A stretch of 64,000 nt of DNA from Polyangium mundeleinium (GTDB lineage: Bacteria > Myxococcota_A > Polyangia > Polyangiales > Polyangiaceae). The DNA lies in the NCBI RefSeq assembly GCF_028369105.1, contig NZ_JAQNDO010000001.1:10200501-10264500 (forward strand). The letters are read 5' to 3'. The notes below the pieces were generated by a model. It saw nothing but the letters and a program-made list of their open reading frames with translations, searched no databases and was not told where the DNA came from. A program made the position numbers and the translations under genes. Shown here piece by piece: positions 1,451 to 61,482 of this stretch (positions are counted from its first letter, which is position 1; every line of letters begins with the position of its first letter).

Positions 1451-1656
1451 GGGTGGCATTGGGGCGGCAGGGAAATAACGCGGGATCGGTGTCGCCGCCA
1501 GCGCAGTTTTTTCGGAGCGCGTATAGCTGGAAACCAGAGAGACCACCCGTGGAGCGGGCGCCCAAGCCCCAGGGTGCGCTACATACGTACCCACGACGAA
1601 GTGGGGACGGCCGGGGACGAGCCCGGCCCGGTGCCACCGACGGGGATTGTACGACA

Positions 1657-3273
1657 ATGAACGACGGGCTCGATCGGTTTCGCGCGCACCTGTTTCACGA
1701 CGAGCGCCTCGGCTTCTGGCTGGACACGAGCCGGATCCGGTGGGCGGCGGACTTCCTCGACGGGCTCGAGCCGCGGCTCCAGGCGGCCTACGAGGCGATG
1801 GCAGCGCTCGAACGCGGCGCGGTCGCGAACCCCGACGAGGGGCGCATGGTGGGTCACTACTGGCTCCGGGCGCCCGAGCTCGCGCCGGATCCGTCGATCC
1901 GCGACGCGATCACCACGACGCTCGGACGCGTGCTCACGTTCGCAGAGGACGTGCACGCCGCGCGCATCCGCCCCGAGCGCGCGAGCCGCTTCCGCGACGT
2001 GTTGCTCATCGGCATCGGCGGCTCGGCACTCGGGCCCCAGCTCGTCTCCGCCGCGCTCACGTCGCCCGCGGATCGCATGCGCGTCTGGTTCTTCGACAAC
2101 ACCGATCCCGACGGATTCGATCGCACCCTCGACGCGATCGGCGACGCGCTCCCCGGGACGCTCGCGGTCGTCATCTCGAAGTCGGGCGGTACGAAGGAGA
2201 CGCGCAACGGGATGCTCGAAGCCGAGGCAGCCTACGCGCGGCTCGGGCTCGACTTCGCGAAGCACGCGGTGGTGGTGACGGGCGAGGGCAGCGAGCTCGA
2301 CAAGCACGCCGTGGCGCGCGGGTTTCTCGATCGGTTCCCGATGTGGGACTGGGTCGGCGGGCGGACGAGCGAGCTCAGCGCGGTGGGCCTCTTGCCGGCG
2401 GCGCTGCAAGGGCTCGACGTGGAGGACATGCTGCGCGGCGCGCGCGCGATGGACGAGGTGACGCGGTCGCGCGTGACGAAGCGGAATCCGGCGGCGCAGC
2501 TCGCAGCGGCGTGGCTGTCGGCGACGGGCGGCGCGGGCAAGAAGGACATGGTGCTCTTGCCGTACAAGGACCGGCTCGAGCTCTTCAGCCGGTACGCGCA
2601 GCAGCTCGTGATGGAGTCGCTCGGCAAGCGGCTCGATCGGCACGGGCGCGAGGTCTGGCAGGGGATCAGCGTCTACGGCAACAAGGGCTCGACGGATCAA
2701 CACGCGTACGTGCAGCAGCTCCGCGACGGGGTCGACAACTTCTTCGTGACGTTCCTCGAAGTGTTGCTCGATCGCGCGCCGCAGCGAGGGGATCTCTCCG
2801 TGGAGCCGGACGTGACGTCGGGCGATTACCTCTCGGGGTTCTTGCAAGGCACGCGGCGCGCGCTCGACGAGCGAGGGCGCGCGTCGATCACGATCACGCT
2901 GGAGGCGCTCGACGCGACGTCGCTCGGCGCGCTCATCGCGCTCTACGAGCGGGCCGTGGGGATCTACGCGGAGCTCGTGGACATCAACGCGTACCACCAG
3001 CCGGGCGTGGAGGCGGGCAAGAAGGCGGCGCAGGCGGTGATCGATCTCGAACAGCGCGTGCTCGCCGCGCTCCGCGCGAAGGCGGGGACGTCGCTCTCGC
3101 TCGCGGAGATCGCGGCGGCGGCGGGCAGCGACGATCCGGAGACGGTGTTCTGGATCCTGCGGCATCTGTCGGCGAACCCGCGTCGCGGCGTGCTCCGCGT
3201 GCGGGGCCAAGGCGCCGCAGCCGAGGTGGGGTCGCCGCTCGACTGGTCGTGGATGGTCGCCGCCGCCCCGTGA
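1657..3273 (+). CDS. pgi: Glucose-6-phosphate isomerase
   Basis: Interconverts glucose-6-phosphate and fructose-6-phosphate in the cytoplasm (glycolysis/gluconeogenesis). The 538-residue protein shows the sugar-phosphate isomerase fold motifs GIGGSALGP (119-127) and SKSGGTKET (174-182), and further on [18 protein letters not shown], which carries the conserved active-site His/Gln region. The open frame extends 68 codons upstream, but that part overlaps the sucA promoter region and has no family match, so the ATG at 1657 (MNDG) is used. The C-terminal 60 residues form a small winged-helix-like extension ([19 protein letters not shown]) beyond the catalytic core, seen in the long form of the family. 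The gene converges on 3411-4184, with palindromic repeat element copy 1 in the gap. Confidence 0.95.
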
Positions 3274-3289
3274 GGCGGCGCGGCGCTCC

Positions 3290-3410
3290 GAGGGTGTTCC
3301 ACAGGCGTCGCGAGCGGCTCGAGGCTAGGGAGACCGAGCGAGGCGTACTCTGTACGTCGAGCGAGGCCGACCGACGCATCGAGCCGCGCAGCAGCCTGGG
3401 GAACACCCTC
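3290..3410. repeat. Dispersed palindromic element, copy 1 (complete, 121 bp)
   Basis: An imperfect palindrome with 11-bp perfect terminal inverted repeats: GAGGGTGTTCC at 3290-3300 and its complement at 3400-3410. The two arms pair, with interruptions, to a centre near GTAC-TCT-GTAC. The internal decamer CGAGCGAGGC occurs twice in the same direction. Positions 3310-3410 match 60821-60921 over 101 bp with only 3 differences. The right end touches the TGA (complement of 3411-3413) of the minus-strand gene, and pgi ends 16 bp to the left, so it fills a convergent gap. It may act as a bidirectional terminator or be a REP/MITE-like mobile element. Confidence 0.85.
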
Positions 3411-4184
3411 TCAGAAGTGGAACCGCACGGCGGCTGAGCTACCGCCCACGAACAGCTCCGGCTTGCCCGGGAGCGCCTTCGCGCGCTCGAGGTACTTCTC
3501 GGGCACGAGGATGCCGGCGGCGAACATGGCGGCGCCGGTCATCTGCGTGAAGCCGTTGAGGAGCATGAAGAACGTGAAGACGTCGTCCTCGGTGCTGCGC
3601 GGGTTCGGGAATTCCGAATCACGCGCATTCTCGATGCCTAGCGAGATGAACGGGCCGAAGACGGGGACGAGCAGCGGGCCGAAGCTCTCGGCGTCGCGGT
3701 CGCCGTCGTCGAAGGCGTAGGCGGCGCCGACGAGCGCGGACAGGCCGTACGGTACGGCGAAGGTGACGAGCCCGGCGACGACGAGGCTCCGCGTCGCCCG
3801 CGTCTTGAGCTCGTAGCCCGGCAGAAGGATGTCGCCCTCTTCGTAGTCGATGCGGCGAGGCAAGACGGGCAGGCGCGGGTCGTCGATCGGGGCCCACATC
3901 GGAGGCTGTTGCGGGCTGTCCCAGGTCTCGTTGCTGAGCTTCGGCGTCCTCCGTTTGGGCTTGGGCGTCGGTTGCTCCTCGGTCGGCGCCGCGCCCTCCG
4001 TCGTCGGCGCCGGAGGAGGCGGAGGCAAGGGCGCGGCAGTCGTGGTCGACGGCGGCGTAGGCGGCGCGGCGGGGGCCGGCTGCGCGCTCGCGGGGAGCGT
4101 GGAGGCGAGGCCCAGCGAGAGCGCGGCGAGCGACGCGAGGCGGCGCGCGAGGCCCGGGATCGACGTGCGCTTGGAGTTGTTCAT
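3411..4184 (-). CDS. Proline-rich exported membrane protein, paralog C of a three-gene family
   Basis: A 257-residue protein of unknown function. The start at 4184 is set by a clear Shine-Dalgarno (AAAGGAG, 9 nt before ATG), not by the longer open frame. It has a signal peptide (about 1-32, ending in ASA), a low-complexity Pro/Thr/Glu linker, then a conserved block YEEGDILLPGYELKTR and two or three hydrophobic segments (for example SLVVAGLVTFAVPYGLSALVG and FGPLLVPVFGPFISLGI), ending VRFHF. The next two genes upstream share the same plan, so they are paralogs in one operon and this is the last gene. The aromatic C-terminal end could suggest envelope insertion, but the helices look like inner-membrane segments. 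Function not recognised. Confidence 0.8.
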   Translation of the reverse strand: MNNSKRTSIPGLARRLASLAALSLGLASTLPASAQPAPAAPPTPPSTTTAAPLPPPPPAPTTEGAAPTEEQPTPKPKRRTPKLSNETWDSPQQPPMWAPIDDPRLPVLPRRIDYEEGDILLPGYELKTRATRSLVVAGLVTFAVPYGLSALVGAAYAFDDGDRDAESFGPLLVPVFGPFISLGIENARDSEFPNPRSTEDDVFTFFMLLNGFTQMTGAAMFAAGILVPEKYLERAKALPGKPELFVGGSSAAVRFHF

Positions 4185-4216
4185 CGACGGAGCTCCTTTC
4201 ATCGTCGATCCACGGC

Positions 4217-4888
4217 TCAGAAATGCCACCGGAGCGTCGCGGCCCGCGGGCCGACCATGACCTCGGGGCGCGGATCGAATGCGGTCGGGGTGCGCGAGAC
4301 GAACGTCTCGTCGGAGAGCATGCCCGCCACGAAGAGCGCGGCGCCCGTGGCCTGCCCGAGGCCGTCGAGCATGAGCATGAAGATGCCGATGCTCTCGGCG
4401 TCGGAGGAGCCGATCGCAACGAAAGGACCGATGACCGGGATGAAGAGCGGCGTGTAGTAGCCGGAGGCCACGCCCTCGTTGCCGGCGAAGGAGCCCGCGA
4501 AGAGGACCGACATGCCGTAGAGCGGCGCGAACGTCGCGATGCCCGCGGTCGCCATCTTGTACCGCGGCCGCGTCTCGATGCCGTAGCCAAGCGGGATCGG
4601 ATCCCCTTCCTTGTACGGCAAGCGCGAAGGCCCGAAGATCGGCGGCGGCGGATAGGAGCTGCGCGGCGGATACCCCGGCGGCGCCGCGCCCATCGGCGGC
4701 GGGTACCCCGGCGGCGCCGCGCCCATCGGCGGCGGAGGCTGCTGCGGCATCACGCCCGGCGGCGGCTGCTGCGGCGCCGCGGCGCCCGGCGGCGGAGGCG
4801 GAGGCGCGCCCTGCGCCAGGGAGATGCTTGCAGCTCCAAGGATTGTCAGCGCGGTGCCGAAAGAGCAGATCGTTCGTCGCGTCGTCAC
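4217..4888 (-). CDS. Proline-rich exported membrane protein, paralog B
   Basis: A 223-residue protein of unknown function, middle gene of the three-paralog operon. It starts with GTG at 4888, overlapping the stop of the upstream paralog by 4 nt (GTGA), which implies translational coupling. It has a signal peptide (about 1-26, AxA-like end at SLAQG), a proline/glycine-rich linker with an 11-residue unit PPMGAAPPGYP in two tandem copies (also visible as a DNA repeat), then the conserved block YKEGDPIPLGY and hydrophobic segments ATAGIATFAPLYGMSVLFAG, FIPVIGPFVAIG and a C-terminal one with LGQATGAALFVAGM. It ends LRWHF, close to the VRFHF end of paralog C. Likely an envelope protein; no enzyme motif seen. 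Confidence 0.8.
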   Translation of the reverse strand: MTTRRTICSFGTALTILGAASISLAQGAPPPPPPGAAAPQQPPPGVMPQQPPPPMGAAPPGYPPPMGAAPPGYPPRSSYPPPPIFGPSRLPYKEGDPIPLGYGIETRPRYKMATAGIATFAPLYGMSVLFAGSFAGNEGVASGYYTPLFIPVIGPFVAIGSSDAESIGIFMLMLDGLGQATGAALFVAGMLSDETFVSRTPTAFDPRPEVMVGPRAATLRWHF

Positions 4889-60755: not shown

Positions 60756-60839
60756 ATGGACGAGGAGTTGCTGATGAACACGCAGGAAATCATGGACATG
60801 TGGGAGCGCCAGGCCAAGGAGCGAGCGGCTCGAGGCTAG
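60756..60839 (+). pseudogene. Short ORF truncated at the palindromic element
   Basis: An open frame of 27 residues (MDEELLMNTQEIMDMWERQA then KERAARG) from 60756 that ends at TAG 60837 inside the repeat copy 2. Its last codons are made by the element, so the original reading frame was probably interrupted when the element inserted or was rearranged. The N-terminal part has good codon use. It may also be a real peptide; there is no strong Shine-Dalgarno. Confidence 0.35.
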
Positions 60840-60921
60840 GGAGGCCGAGCGAGGCGTACACTGTACGTCGAGCAAGGCCGACCGACGCATCGAGCCGCGC
60901 AGCAGCCTGGGGAACACCCTC
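60821..60921. repeat. Dispersed palindromic element, copy 2 (left end missing)
   Basis: 101 bp matching 3310-3410 of copy 1 with three differences, all single bases (a/g, t/a and g/a). The left 20 bp, which in copy 1 hold the left terminal repeat GAGGGTGTTCC, are replaced by a short ORF, but the right terminal repeat GGAACACCCTC (60911-60921) is intact. It touches the TGA (complement of 60922-60924) of the minus-strand gene, exactly as copy 1 does. Confidence 0.85.
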
Positions 60922-61248
60922 TCAGGACTCGGACGGCGTCAGGTCGGCTACGCGGTGGATCGTCCAGCGCTCGGTGCCGTCCACGATCACCTCGGCGAGC
61001 TGCTTCTGGTACTCCGCGTGGTACGGCACGGCGGCCATATCGCGCCACGCCGCTTCGAGGTCGTCCACGTTATCGATCTGCACTTCGAGCTCGATCTGCG
61101 ACTCGGGCCCGCCAATGCTGCCGGAGAGCACGCGGAGCGATCGCCAGCCGACGCGTTGTGCCACGTCGACGTACCACTTCCGCAGCACCCTGAGACACTC
61201 GTCCCTGCGACCGAACCGGGCCGTGAACTGCCAACGCGCAACGTACAT
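60922..61248 (-). CDS. Small dimeric alpha/beta-barrel-like protein
   Basis: A 108-residue protein starting at ATG 61248, preceded by AGGGAG. The pattern is two halves of beta-alpha-beta: MYVARWQFTARFGRRDECLRVLRKWYVDVAQRVGWRSLRVLSGSIGG and SQIELEVQIDNVDDLEAAWRDMAAVPYHAEYQKQLAEVIVDGTERWTIHRV. It resembles the ABM/NIPSNAP-type ferredoxin-like fold, used for catabolism of small aromatics or as a stress-related enzyme. No catalytic residue is evident. The stop codon touches the palindromic element copy 2. Confidence 0.7.
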   Translation of the reverse strand: MYVARWQFTARFGRRDECLRVLRKWYVDVAQRVGWRSLRVLSGSIGGPESQIELEVQIDNVDDLEAAWRDMAAVPYHAEYQKQLAEVIVDGTERWTIHRVADLTPSES

Positions 61249-61482
61249 GATCCGGGCTCCCTTCTGGCACAAGCGTCCGCCTCCCCGCAGGTAGACCGCA
61301 TGCGCGCGGCGCGCGGGAAGACCGGGGCCGCGGGGCCCCTCCGGCCTCGCATACCCCCGTGAGCCCGGCATCATAATCCCCGCTGCCGGCTCCGGGATCC
61401 AAAAACGTCCGGTCCCAAGGTGACACGTCGCGTTACAGCCGGCGTCGAAACGCGTCGACGCCTCCCATAACGTCGCGAATCG

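Follow-up and report, generated by a model that had tools for sequence, protein, structure and literature searches.

Target duplications of the forms TNA and YTAR are assigned to subgroups of the IS5 family, and in ordinary MITEs the ends are the most conserved part. A published account gives duplication lengths of 2–9 bp for IS5 elements and, in its available text, no TNA or YTAR consensus (PMC3281130). REP/BIME sequences and GTAG/CGTC palindromes form another group of small repeats resembling the element described here. They are palindromic and lie near 3' ends with convergent or unidirectional neighbours, and the GTAG termini of REPs often give the flanking ORFs a (TAG) stop codon, which is a precedent, in the available part of that source, for contact between an element and a stop (PMC3733652). 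REPs differ from the element by their length of 20–40 bp and by their tyrosine (RAYT) transposases or lack of a known enzyme, as far as the same text goes (PMC3733652). RUP, BOX and SPRITE (PMC10969869) and the enterobacterial RU elements (PMC2759123, PMC2229807), all from other hosts and compared here by the descriptions in the available excerpts, are likewise small non-autonomous intergenic repeats able to fold. MITE terminators are mentioned as conceivable in one of these excerpts (PMC10969869).

The Polyangium element belongs to a new IS5-type MITE family with a common covarying hairpin core, so far found in Polyangiaceae and related records; no description of the family was found in the accessible portion of the open-licence literature. 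In common with IS5-family MITEs it has short TNA or YTAR duplications, lacks a transposase gene, is multi-copy and mostly intergenic, and the IS5-family ISs resident in these genomes (NF033580/PF13340) have ends similar to its type A and type D TIRs. It differs from them in that one structured core, better conserved than the ends, is found across different TIRs and in that the element is mostly one long interrupted hairpin. The first-pass annotation had named a REP/BIME- or MITE-like family. The first of these classes does not fit, as the element measures 121 bp and has DDE-type TIRs and a target duplication. It shows no 20–40 bp palindrome with an unpaired GTAG/CGTC tag, its ends being paired TIRs, and the stop codon at the Polyangium element comes from the target.

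Copies in the window, family size and host range

The window, that is the whole stretch of 64,000 nucleotides that was analysed, carries two copies of the element (Table 1). The 121-bp palindrome previously proposed for copy 1 was reproduced with the same coordinates and with perfect 11-bp terminal repeats (GAGGGTGTTCC/GGAACACCCTC), which extend to 17 bp if one mismatch is allowed. Its fold reaches -77.1 kcal/mol versus a mean of -48.9 kcal/mol for shuffled sequences (z -8.25; 0 of 200 shuffles equal it). The designation of copy 1 as a nearly perfect hairpin does not hold for its whole length, because conserved internal loops interrupt it. Copy 2 has the expected similarity to copy 1 (97% identity to its positions 21–121), and a minus-strand TGA, read TCA, directly adjoins both copies. 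At the copy 2 site, four of the five congeners (G001–G004) keep a longer plus-strand gene with TAG just before TCAG, and G005, the fifth, has a different upstream sequence. Most simply, copy 2 would have inserted first, and a later deletion would then have taken both its distal end and the 3' portion of the plus-strand gene, which would mean that insertions are not always harmless in the long run.

Table 1. Features of the two element copies, in window coordinates
Feature	Position	Strand	Remark
Element copy 1, end type A	3290..3410	-	Core sense is that of the minus-strand gene whose stop adjoins
Distal 16-bp TIR, copy 1	3290..3305	.	Resembles IS5-family IS ends GAGGGTGTTCATCAGG
Hairpin core, copy 1	3306..3394	-	Core model R1 match C1:10203806-10203894 minus, E 7.2e-21
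Proximal 16-bp TIR, copy 1	3395..3410	.	
TCA, TGA stop of minus-strand gene	3411..3413	-	One target-duplication copy (3 bp); single TCA in empty sites
TCC, taken as altered second target-duplication copy	3287..3289	.	Comparison with empty sites
ORF with stop codon targeted by copy 1	3411..4229	-	
Convergent partner gene of copy 1	1453..3273	+	Presumably glucose-6-phosphate isomerase
Element copy 2, truncated, ~20 bp of distal end missing	60821..60921	-	Core model match 60817-60905
Remaining 16-bp terminal repeat of copy 2	60906..60921	.	
TCA, TGA stop of minus-strand gene at copy 2	60922..60924	-	
ORF with stop codon targeted by copy 2	60922..61374	-	
Remnant of plus-strand gene cut by deletion	60756..60820, limits approximate	+	Congener comparison

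The count of two copies is right inside the window and far too low for the genome, where the possibility that no others exist was checked and does not hold. A DNA search of the 13.25-Mb genome returned 14 places with 91–100% identity to copy 1, a number that counts both window copies, the truncated one too, and another 8 places that form a second group and share just the middle 90 bp with copy 1 at 77–78%. Twelve copies from several groups served to build a covariance model of the core, which identified at least 37 distinct core places at E <= 3.7e-7; 13 weaker rows of its output are some of the same 37 places in antisense reading. The same model found the core in 22 of the 59 genomes searched, own genome counted, with 21 of 37 in the same family versus 1 of 22 outside; the copy numbers per genome, for the own genome as for its relatives, are lower bounds, as at most 150 candidates were scored in the own genome and 74 in each genome of the wider search.

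A scan of one genome per species (84,980 species) with a degenerate core pattern, which demands an exact match and would therefore miss diverged cores in other taxa, gave 95 stretches. The 80 of them that were listed are all titled Polyangium, Sorangium, Minicystis, Byssovorax, Polyangiaceae, Myxococcales or delta-proteobacterial MAG, in agreement with the Polyangiales setting suggested for the element. IMG/VR held no exact match to the core pattern. On one Polyangiaceae MAG contig, a core copy is followed in tandem by a second at a distance of 128 bp (L246:608-805).

End types and the hairpin core

Intact copies consist of a ~90-bp hairpin core between two 16-bp TIRs, as seen in 92 copies placed side by side and in the alignments. 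The ends fall into type A (GAGGGTGTTCCNCAGG), type B (CAGCCTGTGGACTTAT), type C (CAGGCTGTTGATAAAC and variants) and type D (AAGTGGTCTCATAAAC), while other end types occur in more distant genera. Note that the sorting of the ends of 152 copies by 16-mers was rough and that type D sorted poorly, with a shifted frame. At least four end types have one common, recognisably same core. What all end types share is the interior and not the ends, counter to the pattern of ordinary MITEs. One conserved structured core across several end types is an unusually modular arrangement.

Pairing is found in 94.3% of the cells of 92 distinct cores versus 79.3% in shuffles, and double changes occupy 363 cells versus 120 in shuffles and at most 59 in slid controls, although the alignment was fitted to the covariance model so that these statistics lean towards the model. 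The last two rows, which are antisense, are included in the pairing and double-change counts and left out of those of loops and G-U pairs. The internal loops GTCGGTC and CCTAGC are near-invariant across the cores. G-U pairs (19 of 2,297 cells, one near-constant T-G position left out) are rarer than A-C mismatches (47), a scarcity that favours Watson-Crick pairing kept in DNA or on both strands over selection on this RNA strand alone.

Orthologous sites with the same end type allow these changes to be followed between species. Compensated double changes, one or more per site, occur in four of the eight (L030/L083, where both arms have extra bases; L040 with L089, L326 and L305; L041/L327; the L306 group) and are absent from the other four. 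Uncompensated paired differences occur too (L026, L035, L042, L322). The double changes in the arms could result from arm-to-arm copying or from selection, either of which fits. Some selection on the core is nevertheless suggested, because the internal loops, which are unlike each other, would not survive copying alone.

Covariation and near-invariant internal loops are also what would be found in a structured RNA gene or cis-regulatory RNA family that is not primarily mobile. The scarce G-U pairs speak against such an RNA, as do the target duplications and empty sites (see next section), and Rfam had nothing over its gathering score at the element in seven loci, the single such hit being the tRNA beside L017. 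We consider this reading very improbable.

Two copies depart from the usual anatomy. L016 (G000:C1:5907958-5908031), of type A, has lost the middle part of its core. L191:3061-3089 is a mini-hairpin of ~45 bp with two type-A ends and nearly no core, perhaps a minimal derivative.

Target duplications and resident IS5-family sequences

The copy 1 site is empty in all five congeners. Where the own genome has CTCC-element-TCAG, the closest empty site, that of G003, reads CTCAG once, and the empty sites of the other congeners show small indels left of the site. Judged from these sites, copy 1 inserted into the TGA of the minus-strand gene and duplicated 3 bp of target, and one of the two duplicates appears to have been altered since.

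Joined-flank searches and junction comparison identified at least one empty congener for 19 of 28 own loci (12 of type A, 15 of types B/C, and window copy 1); the remaining 9 had no empty site among the congener loci compared, which is not proof of absence. Eight type-A loci are among those with an empty site, and in seven the spacing fits a 3-bp duplication; the exception is L035, with extra bases in the congeners. Both own copies of the duplication read TGA in L029, L031, L033 and L037. One copy is changed to GGA in L034 (window copy 1) and in L030, where the empty-site alignment begins 10 bases into the right flank. In L027, TAA and TTA have replaced the TCA of the empty site, and the hairpin now runs through the duplication as a result.

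Types B–D have a 4-bp target duplication, YTAR. Identical TTAG or CTAA pairs flank L017, L095, L109, L096, L102 and L105, and where relatives of L024 and L078 are empty, a single YTAR-type site is present. For types B and C, duplication of three bases, TAG, had been considered and was dropped because of the TTAG/TTAG and CTAA/CTAA pairs. Mobility of the integron attC-like or HUH/REP type was put aside since target duplications are present.

At 18 of the 19 loci one or more empty relatives have, by eye, a stop codon at the matching place, so that insertion does not usually create it. The locus without one is L017, beside a tRNA: its type-B element has a tRNA-Ser gene, and no protein gene, on one side. 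Insertion does not shorten the gene, as it is the stop codon that is duplicated. This mobile hairpin family of large myxobacterial genomes is one in which stop-codon duplication often spares gene length, and its filled and empty congener sites are natural pairs for asking whether hairpins alter transcript 3' ends.

A transposase gene with the same terminal repeats had been proposed as a sign of mobility. Similar ends do adjoin IS5-family transposases, for types A and D only. Genes for PF13340 IS5-family transposases are present in 6 of 6 genomes searched, and NF033580 (cut-off 110 bits) scores 216.5 bits on the transposase of the type-A IS and 121.2 and 120.7 bits on two pieces of that of the type-D IS. 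Transposases adjoin AAGTCATCTCATAAAC or near variants, which resemble type D, in L290, L291, L292, L295 and L300. These ISs have ~900-916 bp between their ends and are flanked by CTAG on both sides in L295 and L300, and on one side or in altered form in L290, L291 and L292. The type-A-like ISs feature GAGGGTGTTCATCAGG at the transposase start (L296/L374, L391) and GAGGGTGTTC(A/G)TCAGG at the transposase end (L375, L383, L387), with flanking TAA, TTA or TCA. These two ends came from different fragments, no complete type-A IS with both ends in one locus having been seen. A search of the own genome for a whole type-A IS (17-bp end pattern, at most 2 mismatches) gave no end pair at IS spacing; the own-genome IS of this type, found via its transposase, has one clear matching end only. 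Among the IS loci examined there was none with type B or C ends, no core was seen next to the displayed IS ends, and no element was seen with both a core and a transposase gene.

The match of two end types to the ends of resident IS5-family ISs identifies the elements as MITEs. This status, the second class named by the first-pass annotation, is well supported: the 121-bp unit is repeated in many copies without a transposase gene, has TIRs and a target duplication that stands against empty congener sites, and transposases with matching ends are resident for two end types.

We regard it as likely that the element is an IS5-family MITE helped in trans and filtered to stops by selection. Resident IS5-family transposases would recognise the two 16-bp TIRs in trans and insert the element at TNA (end type A) or YTAR (types B, C and D), with duplication of the site. 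Elements with different TIRs would have the ~90-bp core in common, which was not seen in the ISs examined. In this GC-rich, gene-dense genome the tolerable target sites would often be stop codons, and copies in coding regions or in promoter-bearing divergent regions would get lost. Purifying selection would thus be the filter, and the core hairpin would be tolerated or useful at 3' ends. Transposition itself is inferred from the empty sites.

For the core itself a further proposal is made tentatively, with confidence somewhat short of even. It may be a transferable parasite of transposons that has repeatedly acquired different IS5-family TIRs and outlived helper turnover, its arms co-evolving in DNA. 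The arms would co-evolve by cruciform or template-switch copying, which would leave double changes and hardly any G-U intermediates, and one mutation could alter both ends at once and lead to a transposase switch. The near-invariant internal loops would then be what an unknown host or helper factor recognises. If the core truly switches helpers, it shows how a non-autonomous element survives the death of its transposase.

Stop codons and gene context

Of 143 non-redundant copies (152 minus 9 same-locus duplicates), 99 have a predicted stop codon at an element end, the genes being called with codon log-odds from 21 window ORFs, a home-made caller and not a curated annotation. In the other 44 the caller places no gene end at the element (43 with none, 1 within a called gene). 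A scatter of copies irrespective of gene ends, which would have spoken against the initial proposal, is not what was found: the bias of the elements to gene ends is real. The stop is on the left only in 57 of the 99 copies, on the right only in 17 and on both sides in 25. The resulting orientation bias (57 versus 17, p 3e-6) is counter to a symmetrical TIR model, which does not predict it. The 143 copies comprise 69 in convergent, 51 in tandem and 2 in divergent context, 9 that overlap a predicted gene and 12 without a neighbour, whereas other gene pairs of the same loci are 25/109/54 convergent/tandem/divergent.

Non-coding target sites of the same loci are stops in 12-29% of cases (CTGAG 25/85, YTAR 27/172, YTGA 84/677). 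The difference shrinks if the comparison is restricted to the vicinity of gene ends: 97 of 119 elements with an inward stop within 100 bp are at the stop versus 48 of 82 target sites 0–100 bp 3' of stops (odds ratio 3.1, p 4e-4). Elements without an inward-pointing stop within 100 bp number 24 of 143. With such a modest excess over sites 3' of genes, the target motif, together with the purging of insertions that fall in genes or promoter regions, may account for most of the pattern. The earlier suggestion that the element targets such sites therefore stands insofar as the duplicated target is a stop codon, while much of the excess is gone once sites 3' of genes are the reference. A residual stop preference and the orientation bias remain unexplained by target motif plus purifying selection.

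The integration machinery could itself prefer stops or gene 3' ends beyond TNA/YTAR, for instance through transcription-coupled exposure. Besides the share of elements at stops relative to the CTGAG, YTAR and YTGA sites, such active targeting would account for one orthologous convergent gap that is occupied in three species by three end types (L080, own, type C; L100, type B; L073, type A) and for elements in opposite orientations at the same stop codon in two species (L031/L050). The latter pair could also be one insertion inverted in place. Active targeting is opposed by the odds ratio, just 3.1 when the reference is target sites up to 100 bp 3' of genes, and by the type-D IS: of ~10 loci that have its end, only 2 (L295, L300) place it clearly at a stop. 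Purifying selection is not separated from targeting in these counts. We hold active targeting to be unlikely.

Selection for a role at 3' ends would explain both the gene-end bias and the paired stems, if the host keeps the hairpin as a domesticated bidirectional terminator or mRNA 3'-end stabiliser. The preference for convergent and tandem 3' ends with divergent regions nearly empty, the excess that remains at the stop itself, the orientation bias and the compensated changes at four of the eight same-type orthologous sites are consistent with domestication. It agrees poorly with the five congeners that do without copy 1, with the uncompensated paired differences listed above and with the ratio of G-U to A-C cells, a misfit with selection on this RNA strand. 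Moreover, a scan of window positions 3200–3500, which covers copy 1 only, gave no terminator-like match of a GC-rich stem with a T run and thus no U-tract. Domestication is possible and somewhat doubtful, and helped transposition followed by purging of harmful copies is preferred as the general explanation.

A selenocysteine/SECIS arrangement (UGA and hairpin) was considered and set aside, as L027 follows TAA and types B–D follow TAG or TAA.

Other repeats adjoin some of the elements. In the right flank of L020 a separate repeat of ~75 bp, with the hairpin TTTTGCATCGACCGC...GCGGTCGATGCAAAA, adjoins the type-B element; the query made from this flank matches dozens of congener places, and a stretch similar to the repeat follows a type-A end in the own genome (L185:2847). 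The right flank of L018 (query 94-195), beside a type-B element, recurs often in congeners and is perhaps a gene family or an IS. The right flank of L026 carries a repeat of the GTAGATGGGGTTTGGGG type that is found at many places in all five congeners.
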